From the IMG/VR virus record IMGVR_UViG_3300030329_005324, positions 1 to 47,373 of that record: DNA of 47,373 bases. One strand, written 5' to 3'. This DNA comes from a virus. The number at the start of each line of letters is the position of its first letter. Positions within the stretch are counted from its first letter, which is position 1. Of the stretch, positions 4,201 to 47,373 are shown in pieces. The translations under genes were made by a program, and so were the position numbers. The notes beneath the pieces were generated by a model. The model was given only the letters and a program-made list of their open reading frames with translations, was not told the origin of the DNA and searched no databases.

Positions 4201-4681
4201 TAAGGCTCACCATCCACTTACCAAAAACTCCTGTACCTAATGTCCTACCATCTCCTGCTTTAGCCCAAGAGGTTAACTGGAGAAGCATATTATTTAATGC
4301 AGATTTTGGCAACTCATCTAGCTTTGCCCCTAAATCATCTCCTTCTTTCCTAAGTACTTTAGGGTGATTTTCTATTATATATTGCCTAGCCCAATCCCAA
4401 TAAATTTCATTATTTTTAAGTATTGACTGTATTCTTATAGCAAGTTTTAGATTATTTGCTTTCTTTCCATATATAGTATCCAAAGCGCCTTCAAAATCTT
4501 CTGCAGTTAGAACAGCATCACCAAAAGTCTTTTCTAAGAAATCGTTTAAAGGCTTTAATTTATCTTCAGATATATAAGCGAATTTAACAATAGCATCATT
4601 GACATATTGAGTTCTATGTAAGTTCCCCTGCTTTATATCGTCTACTAATTTTCTTCTAATATCACATACATTATCAGCCAT
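1250..4681 (-). CDS. Large late virion protein, 1143 aa, with C-terminal membrane segments
   Basis: This is the last gene of the leftward late operon. The start is taken at ATG 4681, which overlaps the stop of the 4199-aa gene as TAATG; AAGGAG lies about 12 bases upstream. A TTG at 4690 is open but too close to that site. The protein is mostly helical and charged, with a glycine-rich segment near residue 624 (GQYLSGMGTTLQN). Hydrophobic stretches lie at about 1000-1022 (ITLLMDLILFGPVGG) and 1045-1060 (LMLLPLTILLRSLL). The C-terminus has EIVDPFIPFRG. By position and composition it is probably an internal virion protein that is ejected and inserts into the cell envelope with the giant protein. 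It could carry a C-terminal polyvalent-protein-associated domain; I cannot verify this. Confidence 0.8.
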   Translation of the reverse strand: MADNVCDIRRKLVDDIKQGNLHRTQYVNDAIVKFAYISEDKLKPLNDFLEKTFGDAVLTAEDFEGALDTIYGKKANNLKLAIRIQSILKNNEIYWDWARQYIIENHPKVLRKEGDDLGAKLDELPKSALNNMLLQLTSWAKAGDGRTLGTGVFGKWMVSLTLPKNLAMKEKTGAFYLAVKAVEKYPYQMMGRIKDFLQKPKLLKTKRDYGWDDIVDEVHLLADFLGGNKSRNQENLLRIFIWSNKGDSFNNTLVKYDEELGDLVIAEDYFPAPERFYKDGSPMYMFGRYVPLKEFEGGKFYVNTNLPEVRKGLDKAKERFRKLDDELYRYTKNATEKSVEAIRKSFSKVFKLDGEALDFVLFGSYPKGMKKKDIADYEHQLKTQLGPEKWSIAVKIRDSISGLAVINPYWETTNEPRRHKRNHFPAVYSPIRLPMIFEKQIKTILKDIENGIDPALMQMEAQGLKNKTYFELKAKKKSLLEIADRYTDMLNRQDEITIDYMAEGESIPFIRHQVHMKKLSNTIHPLHMRADSGSYQASLKRSMSAIERNYLIATTIEQMGRAKSDTIRDMILNYFKVPFGFTDVKAKIGPFNLGTQDIVRQLGRLNIKIDPSVAQEWFRIISSGISGQYLSGMGTTLQNMTAIQQNIIDWGTKSLSEGLAAYKEDKEGWRDFIQRSGVIEFRDFFNKTLTSDYIHDTIELDTHNKILGEIIRYYAMKRSMKKNKKLRGVYSKAKSIKDLEEILEKQIEEIIAASPNYMKWELKNMIPEEQRVINRKNIVKRRRIKGFAQKYVNWAITKEWEFSPVMENVSVKNFIPKMIKSGPGQIFKFVSDKVNEIGLTMSAGEEWIRTISFVIGVNKAFDAGLIKRQPVKDLKGEDLILAMEFGRLYSRAANFGLTPQDAPNMFHSPLGGGIIGKFKIWSVQKFAKDWKMFQTGLDAMLDYEDIIATIEDPHVRQTWRIWFKKVHQFQKEARREFYRGGKLRYFTSKETRMANHEFAQLRDFLLLQGPITLLMDLILFGPVGGSVVRYALRKFGLQSVGGMRSDLLGLMLLPLTILLRSLLDDEDESTTRWAMSNILRHSFVGLGVQKPFDILWSIMAGAINGDSEDLKHGAYEIVDPFIPFRGTFGPIIKQGAGIKSTGF

Positions 4682-7600
4682 TACGTGCAATCTCTCCTTA
4701 TAACATCTTCAATAGAACTGTAGTTAGCTCTAGTATCCGTAGGTTCTATAACTGTATTTCCTGGAATTTTAAGATATTTATTATAGTTATTATAATACTT
4801 TTTCAAGACTTTTTCACTTAATAATTGTCTTTCTTTTGTGCTTTCACTGGCAGGAGGTAACATTCTAAAATTCCTCATCCTACCATAACCACCTTTACCA
4901 GATTCTAATTTTTCAGAAGTTTTTATAAATCCTCTGAGATACCATATAGTACCTATAACCTTAGCAACTTCTGACAGCTCTGTATATGTATGTATTATTT
5001 CAGGAGTATTTTCTTGACGTTTCCAATATTTCTCAGTCATATCAACAACATCAGCATTTCTTTCAAGTGTTTGTGGCCCCATACTATCTAGGTCTTTCAA
5101 TGATTCCATATATGCATTCCCCATCTGTTGCCTATATAGAGTTCCTTTTTTAAATTCAGAACGATACCACTGTTCCCTGCTCATATTCTTAGGCACATTG
5201 CCTAACTTTAAATCTTTTTTATAAGCATTATCTAGCAATTTATCTAAATCCCTGTCAATAGCTTCATTAGCAAATCTATGAGCATTATTATGTAGATGTC
5301 TATTCAACTTAAATATAGTATCCTCATAGCCAACCTTATCATACTTAATCACATGCTCTCTCATAGTTCTCATAGGGGCAAGTATCAAGTCTTCCCAAGG
5401 CGAGCTCAAGACACTGTCTTCTGTAAACTCTATATCAGTTATTTCTCCCACTCTATCAGAATTCATAGTATCTAAAGCATTTCTATCTAATATCCATTTA
5501 AATCTATCTCTAACATAACTGTCAAACTCATTCGATTTATCTATAATAGTATCAGTATAAAAATTATTCCAACCCTCTCCCTGTATAAATTCACCACCTC
5601 CACGTAATCTACCTGGGTTTTTATGCATTTCCAATAGAGGGAATAAGGCTCCATAATTTCTTTCTAGGTCTATCTCATCCCATGGCCCTATTTCATTTCC
5701 TTCTTTATCTACAGTTTTAAATAACATAGCATAAAGATTTTTAACATCATAACCCCATCCTTCTAAAAGCATAAATTTAGAGTTATCTACAGCTGCTTGT
5801 ATATAGAGTCTTAAAACATCTCTTACTTTCATGTCTTCTTGAGCTGGTTCAAAAAATATTTTCTCATCAAGGCTTCTTAAAGCTACTATATCACCGTCAA
5901 TTACAAAAGATTTATAAACTCTTGAAAGTTGCCCATACACATTTAGAATATTGGCTATCTCCCCAATAGATGTTTCGCCATAAGCTAAAGCTGACATAAG
6001 TTTATATCTATCATTTTTATTAGAAAAAACTAAGTCACTTCTACCTTCTGGAACATAATCTGATAAATTTATACCCTTTATATCACCAACAGATTTTAAT
6101 GTATCCTTTATAGCAGATAAATGAGAATCTGTAAGAGCTTCTATTTGAAGTTCATCGCCATCATTATCTCCTTCAAATCTTGCATATATATCATGGGGAT
6201 GCATTTCTACCAAACCCATTCTGCTATGTATTCTTCTAATAGTTAGCACACCTACGCCACCTATATGAGGCACAGGGTATCTTGCGGCAGCAACTTCTAC
6301 ATCATTATTTTTTAGCCATTCATTTATTTTAGGAATCATTCCAGGCCTCATAGCTTCCTTAACACTGATTCCCTTGTCTAATGCATATCTTTTATAAACT
6401 ACAGCAGCATTATGCCTACCTATAGCTATTTCACCTATACCTAAGTCTCCTTTAAGGTTTCCAGTTATCTTCAATCTTGAACCCAATTGATATCCAGATT
6501 TAAGTATTTTCCTCATTCTTTTAGTATACAATATTTGATTTAAAAGAGGCTCTAATCCTTGATGCATACCAGCTCCAAGTTTTGCATGCTCTAATGCAGC
6601 TAAACTATATCCTTCTAAATCTTTAGTTTCTATTATATCTTTTAAAAATGTGAGTATTTTTTCTTCAGGACCTACATCTCTTTTTAATTTAGTATCATAG
6701 GTAGTGGTGGCGTATCCCCAAAACTTAGCTAATTGTTTGTTTATCTGACTTAAAATATCTCTTTTCCAAGCTTTAATAACTTCATTGTTATTTTCTGGAA
6801 CATATCCATACCACTGAACACCATGAGTCCCAGTCGATGTAGCTTTATCTCTATAAGTAATAAATCCTATAGATTGACCAGATATATCTTCATGCACAGT
6901 ATCTAAAGCTATATTATCATTAACCTTAACTTCGTCTCTTGTAGCAAGCACATCTATTCTATTTCCATCTGCATCTTCAATTCTTCCATTATTATCTATT
7001 CTTGCGACCAATCTTTCGTCAGGAGTTCCTTTATCATACCATATCTCCATATTCCTACTAGGTTTTATCATCTCGTGCTTCATCATTAAAGTCTTATTAT
7101 TAGGACCTCTCCAATAAACAACATTTTTATTGCTACCAGACTCTCTTAAAACACCTCCATATTTAACTAAATTACCCCACATTTGATTTCCAGCAAAACT
7201 TCCACCATCATTTATATATTTCCAACCAACTCCATCTACATATTGCATTGCAGGAGTCTCCTTTCCTGTTTCGGTATCTACAAATGTAGTTTTCTGCTCT
7301 CCTGTTTTATCATTTCCATAATCAAATATTTTTAAATTAAAACTAGGCATATCCTTACTAACAGTACTAGGTGTAAAAGGTATCTTAATACGAACCATAT
7401 TATTTGCAGCTCCTTTCGCATCTCCTAGATACCCAGGCCATATTTTTTTCATAGCTTCATGAACAGCTATATCTTTTGCATCTTTAAAACCAGCTATCAT
7501 ATCGTCTCTATCATGAGGGATAAATCCATAACTAATCTCTTTCTTTATATATGCCTTGATATCTCTAGCCTGTTCTTTAGCATAGGTTGTGATTTTAGTT

Positions 7601-10600
7601 AGCCCTATCCTACGCTTCTCGCCTCTAGTAAATACGATAGCTAAACCTAACTTTTCTAATTCTTTTTCAAGTATATCATAGTGAGATGAATTTAAAAATC
7701 CATATGTATCTTGAAGTGTATCCACTTTTCTTCTTTGTCTAGGATTCCAGATTTTTTCAATCTTATAAAAATCTCTATTAGATATCCATTTTATAAGACC
7801 TTTCCCTCCATTATATTCAAATAAAGTAATTTTTTGACCAGACACATTAGCATGTTTAGTCATCTTATTTTCTGGACCTTTTAACTCTACATCAAAATGA
7901 AGCTGATTGTCAGCTCCCATTTTAGCAACAAGAACATAACTGTCTCTCTCATTCTTTCCATTCTCACGATTTGTCCATACATAGCTATTTATTCTATAAT
8001 AAAATCTTTTAGTCATTTGCTTCTGATATTCTGTTAAGCCTTCGTAAGTTTTCTTAGTTAAACTATGCATAACTCCATCTCTTTTAACAAATTCTTCAAA
8101 TGAATCAGTTTTACGAGCTTCTTTTTTAAGCTCTACAAAATCAGATTCAGATATATATATATTTAAATGGCTTAACCAAGCACGTTCTGTCATACCTACT
8201 TCACTTTCTTTATGCTCTCCAGTTTCTCTTGAATTTCTTAACCCTTCTCTTACAACTTCACTTTCAAAATATTCAATAACTCTATCCTTAACATCATCAA
8301 GCTCAGCAATTTGTAACTTATTATCTCCTTTAATTTTATTTCTTTCTTGGACATCTTTAAAGTTCTTAAACTTGCCTTGAAACCATTCGATAAAATATTC
8401 TCTAGTAGATTCGTCATCTATTGCATTTATCATAGAATCTCTAAAATGCATATGGTCAACACCGCTAAATCCTTGATTTGCCATTATATTACCAATAGCA
8501 CTCCAAGCATCTTCAAAGATATGATTAAGCTCTGATTCCCTTGTTCTTCCTAGACCAGTTTGCTTTCTGCTTAAATCATTTGCCTTATTATAAACCTCCT
8601 CTTCTGTAGTTGGTTCATATTGCAAATCTTTTAATTCTTGAATCATAGGCTGAAATCTAGAAGGTATTAAAGCATGCCTGTCTAATATATCTACTCTAAC
8701 AAGCTCCCACTTAGACCAAGAAGGACGTTCTTTAGTTACCCTAACAATACCTTGCTTAGCAAGTTTATTCAAAGCTTTTGGAATTTGCCCTATATTACTA
8801 AATTCTATAGTATACCAACCCACTGGACCAAGCATCCCCTCTACAAAACCTCCTCTGCCTATTCTCCCAACATTAAATTCTTCTCCATCCTGAGTTTTTA
8901 TTTTAGTCTTTAAAAAAGTTTTCTTCCATTTATTTGTCATAGATGTATAGGCTTTTAAAATATGTGGATAATGGACTCTAGACTTATAAAAGATTGACTG
9001 AGCCTGAGGGTCTCTAAAATTCCAGTAATCTCTGTCAAGATTTCTTATAAAGTCTATAATTTGGGTATAATCTAACACCTCTCCTCCAGCAAAAGGATTT
9101 TCTTGATTTTCTATAGCTATTTTAAAAATATCTTCCATTACATCTAATGCTAAAGATTGTCTATCATTTAATGAAAGTATGTCTTTATCAGCAAACTTCC
9201 CATTACTGTCAAATAATTCGACAAAAGACTTCTCGTCAAAAACAAAGTCCCCTTTATTATCTTTTACTGCTTCAAGTGTTTTTTCTGCAAATTCCCATAA
9301 ACTAACTAGATTATCTGCTACCATTTCTTCTTCTGTTAAATAAATACTTCTAGCACCATCATTACCTTGTATAGGATGATTGCTATTTCCAGTCTGTATA
9401 TAAATATTTCCAGACTTTGAATTAGATGCATAACCTAATGCTGTAGGTAACAATATATCAAACCATCTCTTATAAAGATTGGCTAAATCTTCTGCTAATT
9501 GATATTGAGGGTGAGATATAGTTTGACCATCCTTGCCTCTAATAAATCCATCACCAAACTCAAGCTCTGCTGTTTCTTTATCGAACAAACCTTTGATGTC
9601 AATATATTTGTCATACATACTTTTAACAGTTGTATAAGAACGGAAATACAAATTAAGAAAATTCTTTATATAAAATTGAGCTGATTTAATATCGTATTCT
9701 ATATGACCAACATTATTTATCATATTGATAATGTTAAGCTGTTTATCAATCCTATTTTCTAGTTTTCTTATACGCTCTGAAGTGTATTTAATGCCTGGAA
9801 AAGGCTCCTCTAAATCATTATCAAGGGCTTTAGCTTTTAACATCTTTTCCAAATCACGTTGACTTTTCTCTAATTGCCTTTTCTCAAATGAGATATCACC
9901 TTCAGCATAAGATTGGTGGTCAGGATAAATATCGATTTGAGGCCTTAAAGGACTTTTTTTCTCAAACCAAGCTCTATTAAAGAAACCGTCTTTGCTAAGA
10001 TGTGATGTAAGTTTATTGCTCTCTAAAAATTCAAAAATAGCCATAGCTTCTTTATTGTTTAAAAGCTCACCCATATCCGTACGCATTAAATATAAAGGAA
10101 ATCCATTCATAAATGTATAAAATTCAATATACTTACTATCATTGAGCTTTTTATCGCTAATATTTTTATAATCAAAAGCAAGTAACTCATTCATATCCCT
10201 TTTTAAATGACCTTGATTAGTATTCCTATAAAGATTTGAAATCAATTGAAAGAATTTCTTTTTCAGCTTTTTAGCTTCAGGGGTATCTTCATAAAGAAAA
10301 TCGAAAAAGGGATTAGCACCTGGCATTTGACCTATATGAGTAATAAGGATTTGTCTATACTTAGAATAAATAACAGCTTTATCTGTAATATTTTCGATTA
10401 TATCAGAAACATCCTCACCGTTATCAACTCTTTCTCTAATTAATGCAAGTAAACTGTTATCCTTATTAAACTCTTTCATTATAATATGGCCTGGCTTAAA
10501 TGATATATCATTTTCAGTACCTGGCACACCTAATATATCTTTAGAACCTTTTTTTCCTTCAAAGAACTGGAGAACATCTTTCCATACAGGCCACTCTGAA

Positions 10601-13600
10601 TCATTATTATGCTCGATTAAACTCCTAAAAGGTTCAGCTATTAATTCTTTAGTGCTGCTACCCCAAGAAATTTCTCCAGACTTATCATTAGAAAAAACCA
10701 TCTTAGGTAAACCTCTTAAAGTAAGCTCCTCTATCCTTTTTGTGAAAATCTCAGCTTTAGCTTCAATCTCTTCAAAAGTTACTCTCCCTTGACCACTTTT
10801 CAATATGTCAACAATTTCAGGCAATAAATCAGACTGAAACTCAAATAAAAATATATCATCTCCCACAGCATTTTTATTCTCAACAAACGATACCCATCCT
10901 AAACCATTTAATTTATGCAATATTTCAGGAGTAGTTTCAACAGTATCAGTATATATGAAATTACCTTTGTCACCTCTAAATACTGATGGGAGAACGTGCC
11001 CTGGGAGGTTAGGGTCATGCTTAAAATTAGTTGTAAGCATTAATCTATAGTGGTCTACTCTTTCAGCTTCTGCTTCTTGAATAGCTAATTGCTCTACCTC
11101 TGGGTCAAGGTCCATAGCTTCAATTTCCATTTCTTGCTCAAAAGTAAGCTCTCCCTTAATGCCAGTTTTTAAAGGAATCATTATATTATGAGGATGTATA
11201 TCATGCTGCCATCCACCAACTGTAGTCATAAATAAAGCATGATTATTTTTTATATATTCTATAAATAAACTTTGAATAATTTCAGGGAACACTCTTTTAT
11301 CCGTCACTCCTCTTCTTTTTAGTTCTGGGAGCAACCATTCAGCTCTAAATCTTTCAATAATATCAGATTCAATTTTGCTTATATTAAACTTTTTATAAAT
11401 ACCTTTGTTTTGAGTTCCAAATTTATCAGTTACCAGCAACTTATCTGAGCTGAAATATGTTCTATGAGCTTCTTTATCCATAAGTAAATCATTAAACTTA
11501 TATTTAACAGGAACTACATCTATTAATCCGTTAATAATCCATTGAGTTTTTTCAGTAAAAATGTCATTTGGTCTATTGGGTAGGACCTCTAATAATGATT
11601 CGTAATCATGAATCATATCTTTATATTTCCCCCCTCTATTATCAATAATCGCCATAGACTCTGTTAAAACATTTTCTAAATGCCCTTTCATTATTTCTTT
11701 TCCGTAAATCTCAGGATATTCTTTTAATTGATTTTCATAATAGTCAGTTATAACTTCTGTATCTTTTTCCGTTAACGAATATCTATCAATTAATTTTGAC
11801 TCTATTTCCAACTTAATCTTATCAATATTTTTTTGCAGTCTACTAGAATCTAAGCTTCCATCTTTATTAAAGAAAGGCTTTACAGCTTTTAAAATTATAC
11901 CACTTACGCTATTAGCCAAGTCGCCTACAAGCAAACTTTTCTCATTCTGGATAGTATTATTTTCTTTACTTAAAGATGTTATAACACCTTGACTCTCTAA
12001 TACTATTTTCTCCATAAATTTTTCAGTTGACTTAGCGTCTAATACCTTAAATACAAAATCTGAATCATACTCAGTAAGCATCTTTGCAATATCTTCAAAA
12101 GTAGTTTTTTCGGTCACTTCATAGGCATTAACATGCTTGGCTTTACTAAAAAAGAACGATTTTACCCAGTTTAAGAGCCTTTTAACTGCCGACATAAACT
12201 TACCCTCGTCTACAGATTTTATAGCCTTAGAACGCTTTCTAGCATTTCTAGCTATAGATTCAATCATAACTTCAATTTTAAATAGCTGAGATTCTTCATC
12301 TAATTCCCATCCACCATCAATCTTTTTAGCCATTAATTCGCCCATCACTTTCTCGCCAACTTTAGTCCCAATCAATTGACTGTAAATAGAATTAAACAGC
12401 TTCCTATCTTTATGATATAACATCTCAATAAATGGATGCATTATTTCATGAAAGGGAGTAGTGCTGTCAGCAGTAGCTGTATTAATGTAAATAACTCCAT
12501 CTTTATACCAACCTCTATCAGTTGTATCTTTAAAATCTTTTACTACCCACTTAACAGGTTTTCCATCTATTATAACTTTATCTTTAATTGATGAAATAAT
12601 ATCATTTATATTTCTTTTAACAGCTTCTTTCTTACTTTCAGTCCTAGTTTGCATATATGGAGATTGTTGCTTTCTGGCACCGCCTTTTAAAGAAATAAGA
12701 TAATTGTAATTTTTTGCTTCAATATTCCTAGCATTTATTTCAAAGTTTGAAGCAGTAGTTCCTTCTCGCATCCACTTCACTTCCTCTTCTGTCCCAAATT
12801 TAGATTGAAGATTCTCTATAGCTGCTTTTTGAGTAGCTCCATTGCCAATCTCTAAGCCAGTTCTTTCATCGACTATAGACCATTGATTGTCTTCATTGTA
12901 ATAAATAAAAGTAGGTCTGAGAGTAGGTATTGCATCCTGTAAGTCTATTGATTTCCCTGATACAGCTTTAAGAGCCCAGCCGAGCTCGTTTTCAGCTCTT
13001 ACACGTACACGAAACGTACTGTATCCTTGTTTATGCTTGTCCATGGTAACGCTTATTTCAGGAAAGGTAACAAACTTTCCATCAACAGTAACACCATGAC
13101 GCATCTGAACGTTAATAGCCTTTTCTTTATTTTCCCAAGGATACTCAAAAGAATCATCTTTAAGAGAAAAATCTACAGTCTCTGTTTTTGAGGGATTAAA
13201 GCTATTTATAAAATCTTTTAAATGGATTATATAATTATCACGAAAAACAAACTTTCCATCAATTTTAGGTAATAAGACTGAATCAACAATATATCCAGTA
13301 TCTTTATCCCAAAGCTCATCCGCTACTCCAAGAATTTCCATCCCTTCAAAAATATCAATAGCCATCTTACGTAGAATTCCGTCACCTTTAAAGTCTTCGT
13401 CAAGAAATTCTTCTTCACTTATACCTAATTGTTTTGCTAACTCTTTTTCAGATATGTTTTGTATACCAGCTATTAATTCTTGCCAAGAAAATCTCAATTC
13501 TCCAGTAAGATGGCGGCCTACTTTTTTACTTTGTTCCTCAATAAGCCACTCTATACCCTTTATTAAATTATCTAAGTCACCACCCTTTTGCATTATTTTG

Positions 13601-16600
13601 TCAAATTGCTCTTGACTCATCCCCTCTTTTAATCCATATTTATTAAGAAAGGATACTAATACCTCAGAAAGCCAATCATCTGTAACATCACCTTCGTAAT
13701 ACTCATCTATTGACCCAGGCACTCGCTTAATTTTCTCTTTTCCTGTTTCAGTACTGGCATCATCTTTAACGCCCATAATTGCTTTTATTATATCTTGCAA
13801 TTGAAGTACGGATTCGTCAATCCAATCCTCACCCATCCACTCTTTAGTCTTTAACCATTTAATAAGTTTATTGATTTCTGCGGGGCCAACTACCTGCCTA
13901 ATAACATCTTCTCCGATATCTTGTATTATTGCATAAGCTTTCTCACCTTTTAAAAGATGTGTCATTATCCTAGCTATAGTTTTATTATTAAATTTCTTAA
14001 CTAGCCCTTCCATTCTCTTTTTATTGATAGCTGTTATAGTTTTTTCAACACCTTTTTTACCCTTACGCTTTTCAATCTCAGCTTTTATTTCTTTTACCCT
14101 TAAACCAGCTATTAAGCCTCTTGTTTTTTCTTCTTTTTCAAGAGCTTTTCTTAATTCAGAAAGAGACATTTTTTCATAATTATAGGAAACTTTTTTAGGA
14201 GGGTCAGGTTTTTCGTCTTTTTCAGGCTTTCTATCTTTTTCAGGAGCTTCTTGCTTTTTGTCAGGCTTGCTGTCAATTTTACTTATCTTAGAATCTATCT
14301 CTTTTAATTCTTTTTTAATTTCATCAAAACGCTTACTATCACCCTTTTTAGTCTTTTTATTATCAGCTCTTGCTTGTATTTCTTTTTGCTCTTGCTCTAA
14401 GATAGATTTTTGCTTTAATAAATCTCTTCTATTATTAGCGGTAGTTTCAAAAACATCTTTTTCATCTTTAGGTTTTTCAGGTGAAATCTCTTGTTGAGGA
14501 GCATCTTCAGGTTTATCTATTTTTAAAGCAGTCTTAGCTTCATTCTCAATATCATCCCAAGTCTCAGTAGCCATATTTAAAATATCTTCAGGCTCAACTC
14601 CAATATTTTCAACTGCTTTTGGATTAGCCATAGCTTGTAAAGCACGTTTTCTGTATTCTACAGGGTCGTCTAAATCAGAGTCTTCATCTTCTAAAATCTT
14701 ATTTTCTTCTTCAGTTAGGCTTTCTTCCATAAAACTTTTCAAGAAAGTAGTATCTTTTCTAGTTTGTTGTGAATCAGCTGAATCGCTAGACGAAAAACTG
14801 ACACTAGTATTTTCTATTTCATCTGAACCAAAATACTCAAAAGTATCATCAATATCTTTAATATTTTTCTCTATGTTGGTCTTAGCTTTTTTAGCCTCCC
14901 ATCTGTTTTCAAATTTTTCTACAGCTATTCTTTCACCCTCTGAAGAAAGTATTTCAAATTCAACTTTACCAGTTTCTTTATCAATAGTAATGTCGCCAAC
15001 TTTAGCGCCTCTATATTGACTATGCATTTTAGCTTTAACTTTTCGCTCATACTTTCTTTGTTGCTTTCTAAGTCTATTTGTAACTTTATTAGCAGCTCTT
15101 CTACTACCATATTCTTCTTTTATATTGCCTGCAAGAACTCCATCGTCCTCTTTTAACTGCTCAACCTTACCGTCAACAGTTGTAAATATACCCCATACTC
15201 CATCACGAATTTCTTTTGTAAAAAATTCTACTCCAGTTTTAGGAGGGTCTTTCATTATTTTATCATTAACTATTCTGTCAGTTCTTCCAGAAAGATAACT
15301 AGTAGTTCTAACTGTCTGAACACTCCCACCCATAAGAGCACCGCCTATAAAACTTTCAAAAGCTTCATTCCAATCATATTCAAATTCAGGTTTATATGCA
15401 GTTATTGGAAGGCCAGAATTAATTAAACTTTGAGCTGTATATTGACTAAACTCTTGAGCTCCTTCAGAACCTAATGCTGATACTATTTTAAAGAATTCAT
15501 TATCAGGGATATTATAAACCTTATTAATCCCAGGAATCCTTCTCATGAAATTTTCAACTTTATTTCTAACAAAATACTCACCACTTCCTAAGCTCTTTGG
15601 ACCCCAGTTACCAGGCATAAGTTTAAAGAAATGAGTAGCTTGCATTCTTTCTAAAAATCCAGCTATAGGAGCATAAGTTAATGCAGATAAAATAGCAGCA
15701 TCTAAAGCATCTTCAGCAGACATTCCTCTTTTCCAATACCTGCCTAATTCAAACTTATAATTTTCATTAGTAAAGTAATCAATATCGCTTTTCATCTGCT
15801 GTCTAGTTCTTATAGGTTTTTGATTTTCATCTAAAACACCTTGCCTATCAGGAAAAGTAGCTAATCCACTTCCTTCATCTACTATATAATATTTATCTAA
15901 ATAATCATCTTTAAATGCTTTGATATCAGCAAACAGTTCTTGCTCTTGGATAACTCTTTCAGCCATTAAATAGTCTACCCCAGAACTTAATTCACTAGCA
16001 CCCTCTAAAAGAAATGTAGTTGAAAACACAGCATTCTTAGCCCATAATTGAGCTACGTCATCTGCTTTACCTAAAGCTTTTGCACCTTTAAAAGCTAGTG
16101 CACCAGTACCAAAAGAGGTAATCAGTGAAGGAGCTGCTCCACTTATTATTCTCGTCCACACATTAAAATTGCCTAAATTGCTCCAAGCTGGAGTGCTTTC
16201 AACCCATTCAGCATAATGCCAGTACTCAGGGTCATATTTTTTTCTAAAATTGTCTTCATTGGCTTCTTGCTGTTTAACAGCAGCAACAAAATCTCCTGGA
16301 GCCTGCAAAGCCCAGTTAGCTTTATTCCAAAAGCCAGTGCCATAATCATCAGGAGATTTCCTATCTCCTTCAGCATAGTATTGAGCATCACTTGTAAGCC
16401 CTACTCCATGAGCAGCCCAATCTATTGTATCTACAAAACCATCCCATATAGTCGCTATGAACAAAGGAACTTCTTTAACTACATTTTCAGCAAATCCACT
16501 TAAATTTTCAGACAAGATATCTAATGTGCCTATATTATCACCTGTAACCAAAAGGTCTTTAAGCTCATCGTTTCGAAGTATTACGTCATTAAGGAATTTA

Positions 16601-17280
16601 GAATCATCCCAATATTTATAAGGAGCTTGAGAATATCTAGGTGTACTTCTTAACATAGAAATAAGTTCTGAATCTCTGTATTGAGGATAAATTAACTGCA
16701 TAGTCTCAATGTCTATAGCTCTAGCTCTTTTTAGTTCTTGATTATCTGGATATAAAATTCTTAATGCTTCTAAAGGCTCTACACCATATTCATATCTTAG
16801 CAATATTTCTTGCTTATCTCTGCCTATTTGAGCTCTAAACCATTGCTCCATTTCATCATAATCTTCATCAGATTGAGCAGGAAATATCATCGTAGCACCT
16901 CCTGGTGTAGCTTCAGCTACAGCTACATCTCTGTAAAGCGCTCCATATTCATCAGTAAAGAAAGGAACGTGTAAGTCTGGTTGCTTTGCACGAGAAGAGT
17001 CTGCAACTTTCATTCCCTCTACTATTTTATCTGGAAATAGTAAATTATGCATTTCTTGAGTATATACACCAGATATGAGTTCCCATTCACTGTCGAATGG
17101 AGCTGCTCCATGCCAAGACTCAGGCATCTTTAATTCACTTAAAATTGAATAGTAATTATAATGCTTTAATATTAATTCCTTAGAATCGAGAAGGGGAGCA
17201 CTTCTTTTTGCTCCTTCTTCATCGTACCAAGGGTCATCAAAGCGGTGAGCTATTTGAGTTTGCTTTAATTTTGTAACCAT
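4681..17280 (-). CDS. Giant virion protein, 4199 aa: zincin protease plus RNA-polymerase-like double-psi barrel
   Basis: One unbroken frame of about 480 kDa. Features by residue: hydrophobic, glycine/alanine-rich helices at about 375-405, 527-545 and 640-656, with EGAQE at 606; an acidic and lysine-rich low-complexity linker at about 830-1080; a zincin motif HEIMH (1611-1615) after a strand-like GWYKDGVIYIN, with glutamates downstream as candidate third ligand; an EFQSD motif at 2147-2151, typical of large phage polyvalent proteins; a possible first barrel around DGVGWKY (3349) to Lys3401; and RYPVPH (3667-3672) then FEGDNDGDEL with DxDGD at 3705-3709, matching the RxPxxH...NADFDGD pair of RNA polymerase beta-prime. 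The start lies three bases after the previous stop and lacks a ribosome binding site, so translation is probably coupled. Inference: a packaged, injected RNA polymerase with a protease that may process it. The motifs are seen; activity is not shown. Confidence 0.85.
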   Translation of the reverse strand: MVTKLKQTQIAHRFDDPWYDEEGAKRSAPLLDSKELILKHYNYYSILSELKMPESWHGAAPFDSEWELISGVYTQEMHNLLFPDKIVEGMKVADSSRAKQPDLHVPFFTDEYGALYRDVAVAEATPGGATMIFPAQSDEDYDEMEQWFRAQIGRDKQEILLRYEYGVEPLEALRILYPDNQELKRARAIDIETMQLIYPQYRDSELISMLRSTPRYSQAPYKYWDDSKFLNDVILRNDELKDLLVTGDNIGTLDILSENLSGFAENVVKEVPLFIATIWDGFVDTIDWAAHGVGLTSDAQYYAEGDRKSPDDYGTGFWNKANWALQAPGDFVAAVKQQEANEDNFRKKYDPEYWHYAEWVESTPAWSNLGNFNVWTRIISGAAPSLITSFGTGALAFKGAKALGKADDVAQLWAKNAVFSTTFLLEGASELSSGVDYLMAERVIQEQELFADIKAFKDDYLDKYYIVDEGSGLATFPDRQGVLDENQKPIRTRQQMKSDIDYFTNENYKFELGRYWKRGMSAEDALDAAILSALTYAPIAGFLERMQATHFFKLMPGNWGPKSLGSGEYFVRNKVENFMRRIPGINKVYNIPDNEFFKIVSALGSEGAQEFSQYTAQSLINSGLPITAYKPEFEYDWNEAFESFIGGALMGGSVQTVRTTSYLSGRTDRIVNDKIMKDPPKTGVEFFTKEIRDGVWGIFTTVDGKVEQLKEDDGVLAGNIKEEYGSRRAANKVTNRLRKQQRKYERKVKAKMHSQYRGAKVGDITIDKETGKVEFEILSSEGERIAVEKFENRWEAKKAKTNIEKNIKDIDDTFEYFGSDEIENTSVSFSSSDSADSQQTRKDTTFLKSFMEESLTEEENKILEDEDSDLDDPVEYRKRALQAMANPKAVENIGVEPEDILNMATETWDDIENEAKTALKIDKPEDAPQQEISPEKPKDEKDVFETTANNRRDLLKQKSILEQEQKEIQARADNKKTKKGDSKRFDEIKKELKEIDSKISKIDSKPDKKQEAPEKDRKPEKDEKPDPPKKVSYNYEKMSLSELRKALEKEEKTRGLIAGLRVKEIKAEIEKRKGKKGVEKTITAINKKRMEGLVKKFNNKTIARIMTHLLKGEKAYAIIQDIGEDVIRQVVGPAEINKLIKWLKTKEWMGEDWIDESVLQLQDIIKAIMGVKDDASTETGKEKIKRVPGSIDEYYEGDVTDDWLSEVLVSFLNKYGLKEGMSQEQFDKIMQKGGDLDNLIKGIEWLIEEQSKKVGRHLTGELRFSWQELIAGIQNISEKELAKQLGISEEEFLDEDFKGDGILRKMAIDIFEGMEILGVADELWDKDTGYIVDSVLLPKIDGKFVFRDNYIIHLKDFINSFNPSKTETVDFSLKDDSFEYPWENKEKAINVQMRHGVTVDGKFVTFPEISVTMDKHKQGYSTFRVRVRAENELGWALKAVSGKSIDLQDAIPTLRPTFIYYNEDNQWSIVDERTGLEIGNGATQKAAIENLQSKFGTEEEVKWMREGTTASNFEINARNIEAKNYNYLISLKGGARKQQSPYMQTRTESKKEAVKRNINDIISSIKDKVIIDGKPVKWVVKDFKDTTDRGWYKDGVIYINTATADSTTPFHEIMHPFIEMLYHKDRKLFNSIYSQLIGTKVGEKVMGELMAKKIDGGWELDEESQLFKIEVMIESIARNARKRSKAIKSVDEGKFMSAVKRLLNWVKSFFFSKAKHVNAYEVTEKTTFEDIAKMLTEYDSDFVFKVLDAKSTEKFMEKIVLESQGVITSLSKENNTIQNEKSLLVGDLANSVSGIILKAVKPFFNKDGSLDSSRLQKNIDKIKLEIESKLIDRYSLTEKDTEVITDYYENQLKEYPEIYGKEIMKGHLENVLTESMAIIDNRGGKYKDMIHDYESLLEVLPNRPNDIFTEKTQWIINGLIDVVPVKYKFNDLLMDKEAHRTYFSSDKLLVTDKFGTQNKGIYKKFNISKIESDIIERFRAEWLLPELKRRGVTDKRVFPEIIQSLFIEYIKNNHALFMTTVGGWQHDIHPHNIMIPLKTGIKGELTFEQEMEIEAMDLDPEVEQLAIQEAEAERVDHYRLMLTTNFKHDPNLPGHVLPSVFRGDKGNFIYTDTVETTPEILHKLNGLGWVSFVENKNAVGDDIFLFEFQSDLLPEIVDILKSGQGRVTFEEIEAKAEIFTKRIEELTLRGLPKMVFSNDKSGEISWGSSTKELIAEPFRSLIEHNNDSEWPVWKDVLQFFEGKKGSKDILGVPGTENDISFKPGHIIMKEFNKDNSLLALIRERVDNGEDVSDIIENITDKAVIYSKYRQILITHIGQMPGANPFFDFLYEDTPEAKKLKKKFFQLISNLYRNTNQGHLKRDMNELLAFDYKNISDKKLNDSKYIEFYTFMNGFPLYLMRTDMGELLNNKEAMAIFEFLESNKLTSHLSKDGFFNRAWFEKKSPLRPQIDIYPDHQSYAEGDISFEKRQLEKSQRDLEKMLKAKALDNDLEEPFPGIKYTSERIRKLENRIDKQLNIINMINNVGHIEYDIKSAQFYIKNFLNLYFRSYTTVKSMYDKYIDIKGLFDKETAELEFGDGFIRGKDGQTISHPQYQLAEDLANLYKRWFDILLPTALGYASNSKSGNIYIQTGNSNHPIQGNDGARSIYLTEEEMVADNLVSLWEFAEKTLEAVKDNKGDFVFDEKSFVELFDSNGKFADKDILSLNDRQSLALDVMEDIFKIAIENQENPFAGGEVLDYTQIIDFIRNLDRDYWNFRDPQAQSIFYKSRVHYPHILKAYTSMTNKWKKTFLKTKIKTQDGEEFNVGRIGRGGFVEGMLGPVGWYTIEFSNIGQIPKALNKLAKQGIVRVTKERPSWSKWELVRVDILDRHALIPSRFQPMIQELKDLQYEPTTEEEVYNKANDLSRKQTGLGRTRESELNHIFEDAWSAIGNIMANQGFSGVDHMHFRDSMINAIDDESTREYFIEWFQGKFKNFKDVQERNKIKGDNKLQIAELDDVKDRVIEYFESEVVREGLRNSRETGEHKESEVGMTERAWLSHLNIYISESDFVELKKEARKTDSFEEFVKRDGVMHSLTKKTYEGLTEYQKQMTKRFYYRINSYVWTNRENGKNERDSYVLVAKMGADNQLHFDVELKGPENKMTKHANVSGQKITLFEYNGGKGLIKWISNRDFYKIEKIWNPRQRRKVDTLQDTYGFLNSSHYDILEKELEKLGLAIVFTRGEKRRIGLTKITTYAKEQARDIKAYIKKEISYGFIPHDRDDMIAGFKDAKDIAVHEAMKKIWPGYLGDAKGAANNMVRIKIPFTPSTVSKDMPSFNLKIFDYGNDKTGEQKTTFVDTETGKETPAMQYVDGVGWKYINDGGSFAGNQMWGNLVKYGGVLRESGSNKNVVYWRGPNNKTLMMKHEMIKPSRNMEIWYDKGTPDERLVARIDNNGRIEDADGNRIDVLATRDEVKVNDNIALDTVHEDISGQSIGFITYRDKATSTGTHGVQWYGYVPENNNEVIKAWKRDILSQINKQLAKFWGYATTTYDTKLKRDVGPEEKILTFLKDIIETKDLEGYSLAALEHAKLGAGMHQGLEPLLNQILYTKRMRKILKSGYQLGSRLKITGNLKGDLGIGEIAIGRHNAAVVYKRYALDKGISVKEAMRPGMIPKINEWLKNNDVEVAAARYPVPHIGGVGVLTIRRIHSRMGLVEMHPHDIYARFEGDNDGDELQIEALTDSHLSAIKDTLKSVGDIKGINLSDYVPEGRSDLVFSNKNDRYKLMSALAYGETSIGEIANILNVYGQLSRVYKSFVIDGDIVALRSLDEKIFFEPAQEDMKVRDVLRLYIQAAVDNSKFMLLEGWGYDVKNLYAMLFKTVDKEGNEIGPWDEIDLERNYGALFPLLEMHKNPGRLRGGGEFIQGEGWNNFYTDTIIDKSNEFDSYVRDRFKWILDRNALDTMNSDRVGEITDIEFTEDSVLSSPWEDLILAPMRTMREHVIKYDKVGYEDTIFKLNRHLHNNAHRFANEAIDRDLDKLLDNAYKKDLKLGNVPKNMSREQWYRSEFKKGTLYRQQMGNAYMESLKDLDSMGPQTLERNADVVDMTEKYWKRQENTPEIIHTYTELSEVAKVIGTIWYLRGFIKTSEKLESGKGGYGRMRNFRMLPPASESTKERQLLSEKVLKKYYNNYNKYLKIPGNTVIEPTDTRANYSSIEDVIRRDCT

Positions 17281-34947: not shown

Positions 34948-34963
34948 TTTTTCCTATTTGGTA

Positions 34964-35000
34964 GCCCCCCTCGACAAGAGAGAATCAAGTCGAAGAGGGC
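34964..35000 (-). terminator. Intergenic stem-loop, possible transcription attenuator
   Basis: In the 74-base gap between the 127-aa and 237-aa genes, CCCTC plus GAC pair with GTC plus GAGGG around a 13-base loop, with a three-base bulge. On the minus strand no T-run follows, so it is not a classical intrinsic terminator. It may set a 3' end, protect mRNA or reduce read-through from the capsid/decoration genes. Confidence 0.4.
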
Positions 35001-35021
35001 ACCATTTTTATTTACTACCTA

Positions 35022-41820: not shown

Positions 41821-43386
41821 TTAAGCAATTACCCAATTTTTAGGTTTAGGTACATTTCTATAATAACTATATAAATCTTTACTCTTGTCTTCTTGTAATC
41901 CAGCTAGAGGGCCAGAGTATTTACACGCATATGCTAAAGCATCTATGGTATCATCGTGTCCCATCCTTGGTCCAAATGTAATGATTTCTCTAAACAAATC
42001 ATACTGTTCTTTTTTCAAATGTATTTGACCAATTGCAAATCTTTGTGCCAAGACTTCTTGTATCCTATCTCTTTTAGACAACCTGTTACCAGGTTTTTCC
42101 TCCTTAAATGGAACTGTAAAATCGTTCCTTCTTCTCATCTCGGCACGTAGTGCTTGAAAAATAGGTTTAGACATTGCAGTATCTTCAATGCAAAATAGTT
42201 GAGGAGAATACTTCTTTGCATATTCAAACATGTAATCTACTATACCTTTTTTTGGCTCTCCAGGAATTCCCAATACAGGAATACCTCGTCTTCTCTCGTA
42301 GTCAAGCACATAAATATTATTATCTAAATCAACAGCAATAGCAAGAATTACGCTAAAGTCTGCATCTCTTCTGGCAGAATCAGTTGCTGGGTCAACTCCA
42401 ACGTACACACTGACTGGCTTGGGGTCTTCCCCATCCAGTATGATATAACCCAATCCACTTTCATGTTCATAGGTGTAACTTCCTTTCCAATCTTTAATGT
42501 GGTCTCTTGTGAACATTGCGTCGTCTTCATTTTGTACCTCCATCATATATTCTTGATAAAACTTTTGTGGCTGTCCAGAGTCTGCATAGAATTTCTTTTT
42601 TCTTTCCATCTCTTTCTTGCCGAACCAACTGTCCCATAAAATAGTTCCTTTATCGTCTATTGCTTTTTTGAGAACAATGTCCCAACTAAAATCTTGCTCT
42701 TCCTCAACACTTCTTTCATAATTGACAATAAGGTTATTAATAAAACTGTCGAAATGAACAGGAGTCCCGTTAATACGTAAGCGACCAGTATGGGGCTCAA
42801 GCGCAGGGAATACCACAGCAGTAATAAGGTTGGAGTTTTTTGCTCTAGCTTCAGGAGTAACGGTATTGTTTTCATCTTCAAAGTCATCAAGAATAATAAG
42901 GTCATATCTTTTATGTAGTTTCGCACCACCACGTATACCTGATATATTCGATTTACTAATAAGTTTACAGCCATTCGAAAGCTCAACATCTGTTTCTGTC
43001 CATTTCTTCCCCTTCAATTCTCCAAAATAATATCTTATTCTATCATTAAACTCTAAATGATATTTAACATAATCCATATTACCAGTAGCTAATTTAGCTG
43101 TCGCTGACACCCATCCATAAAATAATGGGTCTTTTGCAAAGCAAAAGTTCCGTAAAATATCACATTTAGTTAATACGGTTTTTCCATGCCCTCTAGGTAA
43201 TATAATAGCAACCTGCTTATTGTCCATATTAGTAATAGTATCCGCTACTTCGTAATGAAATGCAGGAGTCTCAGAACGAAGATAATCATCAGGTAAAAAC
43301 AATTTACCAAAAGATATCATATCATTCTTAGCTAGCAATAGAGCTTCTTCTGCCTTAGATACATTATTGAAATTTACATTAGCCAC
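41821..43386 (-). CDS. terL: Terminase large subunit, 521 aa (GTG start)
   Basis: DNA-packaging motor ATPase and nuclease. Walker A is LPRGHGKT (63-70); Walker B with catalytic acid is LIILDDFED (163-171). The C-terminal RNase H-like nuclease shows Asp332 in VGVDPATDS, Glu401 in FCIEDTAMS, and the DD pair 478-479 with Asp482 in HDDTIDAL. The GTG start at 43386 lies within the last codons of the upstream gene; AAGGAA lies about 14 bases before it, so coupling is likely. Full-length, with all catalytic residues present. Confidence 0.95.
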   Translation of the reverse strand: MANVNFNNVSKAEEALLLAKNDMISFGKLFLPDDYLRSETPAFHYEVADTITNMDNKQVAIILPRGHGKTVLTKCDILRNFCFAKDPLFYGWVSATAKLATGNMDYVKYHLEFNDRIRYYFGELKGKKWTETDVELSNGCKLISKSNISGIRGGAKLHKRYDLIILDDFEDENNTVTPEARAKNSNLITAVVFPALEPHTGRLRINGTPVHFDSFINNLIVNYERSVEEEQDFSWDIVLKKAIDDKGTILWDSWFGKKEMERKKKFYADSGQPQKFYQEYMMEVQNEDDAMFTRDHIKDWKGSYTYEHESGLGYIILDGEDPKPVSVYVGVDPATDSARRDADFSVILAIAVDLDNNIYVLDYERRRGIPVLGIPGEPKKGIVDYMFEYAKKYSPQLFCIEDTAMSKPIFQALRAEMRRRNDFTVPFKEEKPGNRLSKRDRIQEVLAQRFAIGQIHLKKEQYDLFREIITFGPRMGHDDTIDALAYACKYSGPLAGLQEDKSKDLYSYYRNVPKPKNWVIA

Positions 43387-45166: not shown

Positions 45167-45437
45167 ATCAAAATTTAATCAAACGCAATTTATTTCCCTA
45201 GAAATTAATTGTGCAGCTACGTCAAGATAGAGAAAGCCCCTGAGAAGTCAATCTTTATTTTTGAATTTCATCTTTAGCCAGTACCCTCTATCTTTGGCAG
45301 TCTTCGGTTCCTTAAGCTTAATTAGTCTATTTAGACAATCTCAATCTCATCTTAATTTCCTAGGACCTGTAGATTTTCGACCCATACAAAAGATTTATAT
45401 CAAAAAAATTTTTGGAGCTATCGGGGACAATCCTTAA

Positions 45438-45518
45438 ACCTCTATTTGAGGTGGCAACCCAACTTCTGACCCTTTACTTGTGTGCGAGACCCTCAAGGGT
45501 GATAACCAAATGGTTGCT
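45438..45518 (+). ncRNA. Candidate structured RNA
   Basis: A hairpin ACCTC-TATTT-GAGGT (45438-45452) is followed directly by GGCAACC (45453-45459), which can pair with GGTTGCT (45512-45518). Inside, ACCCTT (45469-45474) can pair with AAGGGT (45495-45500). The nested arrangement suggests a folded RNA or 5' leader of the rightward transcript. No known riboswitch consensus is recognised, and no tRNA T-arm is present. Confidence 0.4.
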
Positions 45519-45533
45519 CCGCTTGTAATATAC

Positions 45534-45549: not shown

Positions 45550-45695
45550 TATCCAAACAATAAATCAAGGTTTCAAAAATTGTAGGATTTTAGTACTTGG
45601 CTTGCAGTTGTATAAGTGCCCCTTGATATCGCTTTTTTTTATATAGATTTGCGTTATCTTTCGTTTTTTTAACTAACTAATAGGAGATATTCATT

Positions 45696-46097
45696 ATGGA
45701 TATTAACAAACTAATCTCAAAGCTTACACTTCGCAAGGTCAATGCAGTTAGGCTAGACTTACAAGTACTAGAATGCAAGGACGGTTCCAAGTCTCTTGTT
45801 TATTCTACTTACAAGAAATCCAACACTATCAAGCTATTCGGTACTGATAGAGTTATTACTACTTCATCTATTGATACATCTGTTCCCAAATCTACTTCTG
45901 GCAAATGGATACATACAGCTTGGGTTTCTGACGATATTTCAGAATACAAAGCTATTGCCGATGAATTTGGCGAGGTTGCAGTTGGTATTATTACCGAGGG
46001 AGTTCTAGTTCCTCACACTTTACAACAAGCAGAACAACTTCTTGCAGACGATTCTACATCTGTTGATGTTTCTGACTCAGCTTCAGCACCTTTCTAG
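45696..46097 (+). CDS. First rightward gene, hypothetical protein, 133 aa
   Basis: Start ATG follows TAGGAGATATTC. The protein has a basic N-terminus (LRKVNAVRLDLQVLECKDGS), a beta-type middle, and FGEVAVGIITEGVLVPHTL, ending with an acidic serine-rich tail; such acidic tails occur on single-strand DNA-binding and related phage proteins, but no OB-fold signature is certain. Codon use differs from neighbours: AAG and C-ending codons are frequent, suggesting high expression or a different origin. A terminator-like hairpin follows. Confidence 0.7.
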   Translation: MDINKLISKLTLRKVNAVRLDLQVLECKDGSKSLVYSTYKKSNTIKLFGTDRVITTSSIDTSVPKSTSGKWIHTAWVSDDISEYKAIADEFGEVAVGIITEGVLVPHTLQQAEQLLADDSTSVDVSDSASAPF

Positions 46098-46113
46098 CCT
46101 TCCTTACATCCTT

Positions 46114-46163
46114 GTACGAGCTCTGATGATTATTATCGTTGGAGCTCTACATCCTTTTATTAT
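46114..46163 (+). terminator. Intrinsic terminator-like hairpin after the 133-aa gene
   Basis: GTA plus GAGCTC pair with GAGCTC plus TAC (46114-46150), with one bulged base, followed by ATCCTTTTATTATTAT. Stem plus a T-rich tract soon after the 133-aa gene's stop fits a rho-independent terminator, making this gene its own transcript. Confidence 0.5.
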
Positions 46164-46172
46164 TATATAAAC

Positions 46173-46204
46173 AGCCCTTAAACATTCTATTAAAGGTTTA
46201 GGCT
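46173..46204 (+). other. Hairpin in the rightward leader
   Basis: AGCC and TAAAC pair with GTTTA and GGCT across a 12-base loop, with a two-base bulge. It lies between the terminator-like hairpin and the three-way-junction element and may belong to the same structured leader. Confidence 0.4.
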
Positions 46205-46212
46205 AACATAAC

Positions 46213-46282
46213 GACTAGGTTACCATATGAATGGTTATAAAGATGAGACGAGCGAAAGCTTAATTGCGTCTTGCACCTAGTC
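46213..46282 (+). ncRNA. Three-way-junction RNA leader
   Basis: A perfect 8-base closing stem (GACTAGGT 46213-46220 with ACCTAGTC 46275-46282) encloses two hairpins: ACCAT-ATGA-ATGGT (46222-46235), and AGACG/CGTCT (46246-46250 with 46267-46271) topped by AGC-GAAA-GCT, a GNRA tetraloop. It ends a few bases before the AAAAGGAGG site of the 22-aa peptide. This looks like a riboswitch-like or otherwise regulatory 5' leader. No known class matched from memory. Confidence 0.6.
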
Positions 46283-46301
46283 CATTGCAAAAGGAGGACA
46301 T

Positions 46302-46370
46302 ATGTCTGAAGAAACTAAGTGTAGTATTTATTTTGTATTATTGTTATTAACATTATTCTACCTCATATAA
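46302..46370 (+). CDS. 22-aa single-pass membrane peptide
   Basis: The ATG follows a near-perfect AAAAGGAGGACAT. The product is a polar start (MSEETKCS) followed by a hydrophobic helix (IYFVLLLLTLFYLI) to the end. Size and composition fit a small membrane peptide, for example a toxin-like or host-membrane-modulating protein; no family is known to me. It lies directly after the three-way-junction RNA, and the next gene begins 13 bases later with its own binding site. Confidence 0.6.
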   Translation: MSEETKCSIYFVLLLLTLFYLI

Positions 46371-46665: not shown

Positions 46666-47274
46666 ATGAAAGCTAAAACCATTACAATGAATAAAGAAAT
46701 AGATTTAAGAGACGTATTTGAGCAAATGGGAGTATTTGAGAAATATTACGAAAATGACCATCAATTTGTCTATTATCAAGAAGATAGAGATGTCTTAATG
46801 CAAAGATATAAGAAAACATTTTCTCATCTTACTAATCTATGGTGTACAGGAAGACCAGATGGTTATAATTGTCCTACTTGTCAAGAGTATATCGATATAT
46901 TATTACCTGTATTTGAATTAATAAGATTAAGGAGTAGTAGAGGTGATAATCTTGCTAAAACTGATTTTGTTGATATTAGCAATGAAAAAGACTCAACAGA
47001 TGAAAGGTCTGACTTATTCTATAAAGATGAAATAGTAGAGTTAGAGAATGAAATAGACGACTTAAAATTTAGCAATTCCAAATTAAAAACACACTGGAAA
47101 AATGCTATTAAGGAAAGAGATGACAATAAGGATGAAATATTAGAGTTAAAAGAGAAGATGGATAAATTAGATGGTCTTCTGAAAATAGAAAAAGCTAAGA
47201 ATAAACAACTTCTTGATATTCTTCAAGGTAGGCCATCTAAGGTAAAGAAAGTAATTGCTGAAAAGACTAAATAA
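46666..47274 (+). CDS. Hypothetical coiled-coil protein, 202 aa
   Basis: Start follows AAAGGAGATAAG. The N-terminal half is globular with an NCPTC motif (residues 69-73) and a second cysteine nearby (WCTGRPDGYN). The C-terminal half, from about residue 120 to 190, is a long charged coiled coil. It ends with a basic stretch (GRPSKVKKVIAEKTK). An oligomeric regulatory or scaffold role is possible; I do not recognise the family. A strong hairpin follows at 47298. Confidence 0.7.
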   Translation: MKAKTITMNKEIDLRDVFEQMGVFEKYYENDHQFVYYQEDRDVLMQRYKKTFSHLTNLWCTGRPDGYNCPTCQEYIDILLPVFELIRLRSSRGDNLAKTDFVDISNEKDSTDERSDLFYKDEIVELENEIDDLKFSNSKLKTHWKNAIKERDDNKDEILELKEKMDKLDGLLKIEKAKNKQLLDILQGRPSKVKKVIAEKTK

Positions 47275-47297
47275 TTCGTTTATAGGTCGTTATTATT

Positions 47298-47329
47298 CCT
47301 CTGTTAATACAATTATAATTAACTAGAGG
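47298..47329 (+). other. Strong hairpin downstream of the 202-aa gene
   Basis: CCTCT plus GTTAAT pair with ATTAAC plus AGAGG: 11 pairs with one bulged T and a nine-base loop. No T-run follows on the plus strand, so it is a terminator without tail, a processing site, or part of a leader for a gene beyond the window. Confidence 0.45.
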
Positions 47330-47373
47330 TAGCCTATGAATGAGTAGGTGTTTTAGGATAGTTTTGCACCGTA

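Follow-up and report, generated by a model that had tools for sequence, protein, structure and literature searches.

A three-way-junction RNA (3WJ), defined by folding and by a homologue in a second phage, lies at 46213..46282 on the plus strand of an uncultured marine tailed phage. Sequence comparison shows this element to be a genuine structured RNA, a three-stem junction held by compensatory change. We propose that it may be a cis-acting structured leader at the 5' end of the second early transcription/translation unit, a reading to which we give about an even chance.

The window, which is the whole stretch of DNA analysed here, is a 47,373-base IMG/VR contig. Its minus strand carries terminase, P22-type portal and SU10-type capsid genes, and its plus strand from 45696 to the right contig end carries small early genes, the labels early and late following from gene content and orientation. 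TerL relatives are very common, being encoded by 598 of the 600 viral-contig stretches scanned, of which 80 were kept. The nearest isolates share less than 30% TerL identity, and a search of bacterial genomes with TerL and the element pattern returned no match and no relative. Two relatives matter most here: L002 (TerL 94% identical) and the more distant G002 (IMGVR_UViG_3300030098_005107, 54.5 kb, TerL 91% identical). The first early gene, upstream of the leader (45696..46097, plus strand), encodes a 133-aa protein of unknown function that has homologues in L002 (36% identity) and G002 (29%; alignment A5) and no Pfam or PHROG match. Viral-contig scans with the 133-, 202- and 59-aa neighbour proteins found no relatives, and searches with the 133-aa family alignment and a 60-aa protein returned only G002 and L002 again. 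On the minus strand, a 4199-aa protein (4681-17280) contains HEIMH and FEGDNDGDELQ motifs that resemble a metalloprotease and the DGD loop of double-barrel RNA polymerases, a resemblance that is unproven. A virion RNA polymerase, suspected from the DGD-type motif, was dropped after no Pfam, PHROG or PDB match was found.

The element is closed by P1, an 8-bp perfect stem (GACUAGGU/ACCUAGUC, 46213-46220 / 46275-46282), as an earlier note on this DNA had claimed. Within P1, J1/2 (U, 46221) precedes the P2 hairpin ACCAU-AUGA-AUGGU (46222-46235, stem 46222-46226/46231-46235), J2/3 (UAUAAAGAU, 46236-46244) precedes P3 (46245-46250/46267-46272) and J3/1 (GC, 46273-46274) returns to the closing stem. 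The third arm includes the apical arm AGC-GAAA-GCU (46251-46260, GAAA tetraloop 46254-46257) and a 3' bulge (46261-46266). In strand order, the copy in the window reads GACUAGGU U ACCAU AUGA AUGGU UAUAAAGAU GAGACG AGCGAAAGCU UAAUUG CGUCUU GC ACCUAGUC, all on the plus strand. The near-perfect ribosome binding site that the same note placed just after the fold is confirmed as AGGAGG (46292-46297, plus strand), 9 nt from the 3' end of the 3WJ and 4 nt before the ATG at 46302. This ATG opens a 22-aa ORF (MSEETKCSIYFVLLLLTLFYLI, 46302..46370, plus strand) with a predicted single membrane helix.

BLAST and a single-sequence covariance model, run on the fetched pieces, found no homologue. A scan of the whole records behind the loci with model R1 gave one match, full length and with an E value of 1.2e-11, in G002. 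The G002 homologue spans 72 nt (43116-43187, minus strand) at a site equivalent to that in the window and reads, in strand order, AACGAGGU U GCCAU ACAA AUGGC UAUAAAGAU GACAUG (arm UAUCU-AUU-AGAUA) CGUGUU GC ACCUCGUU. All 19 helix pairs form in both phages despite nine helix substitutions, and none is broken. Two-sided changes affect four pairs (P1 has two of them, P2 and P3 one each) and one pair is changed on one side (C-G to U-G), in what is a single comparison because there are only two examples in all, with P3 picked partly with that comparison in view. The compensatory changes that the earlier note had proposed to look for are thus present in the homologous leader of G002. Sliding the structure by 1-3 columns drops pairing to 32-41% of cells, and nine random helix substitutions leave all pairs intact in 33 of 1,000,000 trials (~3e-5). 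The junction changes at 0 of 12 nucleotides, against 20 of 58 at the remaining aligned positions, and the loops change freely. Read on the plus strand, the C-G to U-G change and a G-U pair common to both copies point to the plus strand as the RNA strand, given that G-U pairs are tolerated in that reading.

Beyond this pair, model R2 found no further copy in 72 records besides one chance match, in G008 (E 0.225), discarded as falling within a 592-aa gene. At the DNA level, the region had no match in the phage collection. All 17 matches to the closing-stem pattern were chance matches, and the 14 matches to the arm 16-mer contained no 3WJ, the only partial match being in L105 (E 0.1).

Could fold energy alone have established the element? 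The 96-nt region folds at -23.2 kcal/mol, whereas dinucleotide shuffles give -15.3 +- 3.0 kcal/mol (z -2.68) and 2 of 200 do as well. This value is only moderately above chance and is not decisive because other windows of the contig fold equally well: 44 of 18,922 70-nt windows on both strands do so at least as well, a count that includes overlapping windows and the element itself. The claim of a compact fold unlikely by chance stands on the comparative evidence, which is strong, and not on energy, which by itself reaches only z -2.7. The 174-nt leader plus coding sequence of the window is unexceptional in overall stability (z -0.5), and the G002 homologue folded alone gives z -1.8. In the ensemble, P1 and P2 are both well determined (mean pair probability 0.97 and 0.93, respectively). 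The third stem of the window has two competing registers, of which the energy model prefers AAGAUG/CGUCUU (0.86). However, that register is broken in G002 by a G-G mismatch, leaving the homologue without a second P3 register, whereas GAGACG/CGUCUU persists there with a compensatory change from G-C to C-G. Because the energy-preferred register breaks in G002, P3 is most likely GAGACG/CGUCUU, though energy calculations on the window sequence continue to favour the other. Both internal hairpins described by the earlier note, one with a GNRA loop, are present in the window, but the GNRA loop is not conserved and the pairing of the third stem is revised here. The GNRA loop was rejected as a key feature, given that in the G002 homologue its place is taken by an AUU loop on a 5-bp arm.

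The element fits no RNA class against which it was compared. With Rfam 15, the whole window gave no match at the gathering threshold and the element nothing at E<=10; the G002 homologue region gave only scattered chance matches far below threshold. The view that it matches no known riboswitch class is thus borne out, and that of a phage-specific RNA holds as far as the searches reached. ARAGORN found no tRNA and no tmRNA in the window, and the element fails the tRNA/tmRNA test. Two relatives have tRNA-Met genes in their early regions (L118:1913-1983 and L017:2133-2208, both minus strand), whereas the window has none; the tRNA-Met of G002 is separate and away from the element. A hammerhead ribozyme was rejected: the window has GAUGAG...CGAAA with C3-U4 replaced, G002 has GAUGAC without GAAA, and Rfam gives no match. 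The marine phage RNA motifs manA, wcaG and PhotoRC-II of Rfam are likewise known only by comparison and occupy presumed cis-regulatory positions (PMC2864571). Unlike the present element, which has no Rfam match, these motifs are tied to metabolic, exopolysaccharide or photosynthesis genes in cyanophages.

As judged from sequence, the element is a cassette that sits between the ribosome site and a TATAAACAGC-type motif conserved in the clade. The distance from this motif to the ribosome site is 18-34 nt in relatives without the element and ~120 nt in both carriers. In the window, a conserved element at 46160..46186 (plus strand) with TATAAACAGCCCTTAAACATT (46166-46186) is a candidate promoter or transcript start region; it is identical in G002, has one change in L002 and is unique in the window. 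Related motifs (TAAACAGC.C) occur in L005, L008, L009, L013 and L017, and TAAACAGC has 11 early-sense occurrences in 34 early regions versus none antisense. From this conservation and position, we infer a candidate promoter at the motif. The P0 hairpin, closed by AGCC/GGCU (46173..46204, plus strand), lies at the presumed 5' end of the leader. P0 occurs in the window and G002 and is missing, together with the 3WJ, from L002, which is closer to the window than G002 is and retains the motif, the ribosome site and a 60-aa-type membrane gene without the cassette. In G002, the cassette precedes that same type of gene, which encodes a 60-aa two-helix membrane protein; in the window, it precedes the unrelated 22-aa ORF, which has no relative in G002 or L002. 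The downstream genes are unrelated, and therefore the RNA is not tied to one gene. The suggestion that the RNA is a leader devoted to controlling a toxic 22-aa peptide is consequently unsupported, and a type I toxin-antitoxin arrangement fares no better, there being no consistent link to one small membrane peptide. Temperature sensing or masking of the ribosome site finds no indication either: the site lies outside the 3WJ, its core GGAG is mostly unpaired (0.70 in the window model) and the listed suboptimal folds retain the 3WJ without pulling the site into it.

What does the element do? Of the features of a structured 5' leader, covarying structure and position were found, and promoter and transcript are inferred. 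In the cis-acting leader that we favour, transcription would start at a promoter by the conserved motif, and the transcript would comprise the 5' hairpin P0 and the junction domain, acting in cis on whichever gene follows. Its likeliest action would be to shield the early mRNA or determine how long it lasts, and to set its access to ribosomes, by keeping the 5' region folded as far as the ribosome site. In bacteria, 5' secondary structure stabilises mRNA, since RppH and RNase E require a single-stranded 5' end, and in ompA-type leaders, folding of the 5' UTR ahead of the ribosome site slows mRNA decay (PMC3997798). Protection of this kind would be the most ordinary mechanism and would need no partner. 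Like these leaders, the element would be a folded 5' UTR before the ribosome site, but it differs in its invariant junction. The ompA-type stabilising leaders are simple hairpins without an invariant junction, and a simple stabiliser would indeed need none, which is a counterpoint to the leader reading. The invariant junction can be argued to mean that something also recognises the element, and hints at a host or phage protein, or RNA polymerase. A bolder and unlikely version is a new small RNA class of this marine phage clade, in which the invariant junction would bind one particular partner (a ligand, a host factor or RNA polymerase) and the RNA would be a portable leader that phages swap before early genes, one of a set of structured early-spacer RNAs with rapid turnover.

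The modularity of the cassette also bears on a stand-alone or processed trans-acting small RNA, such as a decoy or an antisense to a host function or defence, whose position at early genes would be incidental. Early phage regions commonly carry accessory genes, and unrelated downstream genes and a presence/absence cassette would suit such an RNA. Yet each copy is followed at a distance of 9-15 nt by a ribosome site, P1 is not trailed by a terminator-like U-run, and the leader placement is kept while the genes change, so that we regard this alternative as rather unlikely. The early location also recalls the putRNA of phage HK022, an RNA of ~70 nt that acts independently of protein just downstream of early promoters and consists of two side-by-side stem-loops with an RNA triplex (PMC9378689). 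A put-like nascent fold that binds RNA polymerase could allow read-through of early-operon hairpins, and the element, at 70-72 nt in an early phage leader ~40 nt after the presumed start and with hairpin-rich spacers downstream, resembles putRNA in size and place. The likeness rests on these two features, however: both copies form one enclosed three-way junction rather than two adjacent stem-loops, the phages are unrelated, and nearly all relatives have the same hairpin-rich early region without the element. Antitermination is thus an explanation to which we would assign a low probability.

An invariant junction with variable loops and covarying stems is also what a metabolite- or ion-sensing riboswitch would present if the junction were its binding pocket. 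Purine-class three-way-junction riboswitches have ~70 nt, three stems, a conserved junction and a ribosome site nearby. The element matches this outline, its ribosome site being 9 nt away, and its two P3 registers in the window could provide an alternative fold. It nevertheless matches no Rfam class or model, its hairpin loops are unconserved, the downstream genes share no metabolic theme, the G002 homologue lacks the second register and no structure masking the ribosome site was found, which together make a riboswitch improbable. T7 early genes are separated by RNase III processing sites, and the element likewise separates small early genes in a clade whose early spacers are full of long-stem structures. 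For RNase III, however, an 8-bp closing stem plus junction seems short, and a cleavage site should need no invariant 9-nt junction strand; we consider a processing site of this type quite improbable. That the fold is a chance feature of a spacer, devoid of RNA function, would accord with a z of only -2.7, the many equally stable windows of the contig and the absence of the element from most relatives, but hardly with nine helix substitutions that break no pair and include four compensatory changes, and this explanation is very improbable.

The proposed cis-acting leader lies in a region rich in RNA structure. A strong hairpin follows the stop of the first early gene (46113..46151, plus strand), and the spacer at 46098-46212 folds with z -4.71 (0 of 200 shuffles as good); L002 and G002 have another, different hairpin in its place. 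Across 73 distinct early spacers in the clade that are 60 nt or longer (figures indicative, as they depend on simple gene calls), the summed fold is -3509 kcal/mol; shuffles reach -2831 +- 32 and the antisense strand -3063, and z is below -2 in 45 of the 73 spacers. Closing stems of at least 9 bp number 27, against 8.5 +- 2.7. Sliding windows give a smaller sense excess (5.6% vs 4.3% below z -3). Some spacers are very like the element in size and placement, though not in sequence; that of L064, for instance, has 70 nt and two hairpins and lies 8 nt from the ribosome site. The element is best regarded as a well-supported representative of the structured early leaders and spacers, which form a hypervariable set.

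Other structured sequences were observed in the same phages. In G002, ~260 nt of structured non-coding sequence (L118:3230-3490, minus strand) extends from the first early gene to the leader, far longer than in the window, a difference that suggests fast turnover of structured spacers. A clade-wide conserved structured RNA occupies 45385-45530 on the minus strand, in the 5' region of the terminase operon. This block is found by nhmmer with E below 1e-3 in 26 of 81 fetched phage pieces, has no Rfam match and is more conserved than the 3WJ element. Among 22 phages, nearly all form its minus-strand pairs UCACCC/GGGUCAGA and GUUGGG/UCCCCGAU, with changes that are compensatory or yield G-U pairs; an apparent plus-strand consensus was dropped in favour of the minus strand, where the G-U pairs appear. 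AAGGTTTCAAAAATTGTAGGATTTTAG (45567-45600, plus strand), which precedes the first early gene and is strongly conserved across the clade, is a candidate early promoter. Near the contig end, a long hairpin directly follows the stop of the 202-aa gene (47274-47346, plus strand; z -3.6, 0 of 200 shuffles), and a strong hairpin lies in a late-gene gap (34948-35021, minus strand; z -5.9).

For a large group of uncultured marine phages, the present analysis adds an RNA motif that compensatory change supports and that Rfam lacks. The early gene spacers of this clade are systematically structured as RNA on the transcribed strand and turn over very fast. Should the leader prove to be a recognised module, it would offer a testable case of early-gene control by interchangeable RNA leaders, as opposed to gene-specific switches.
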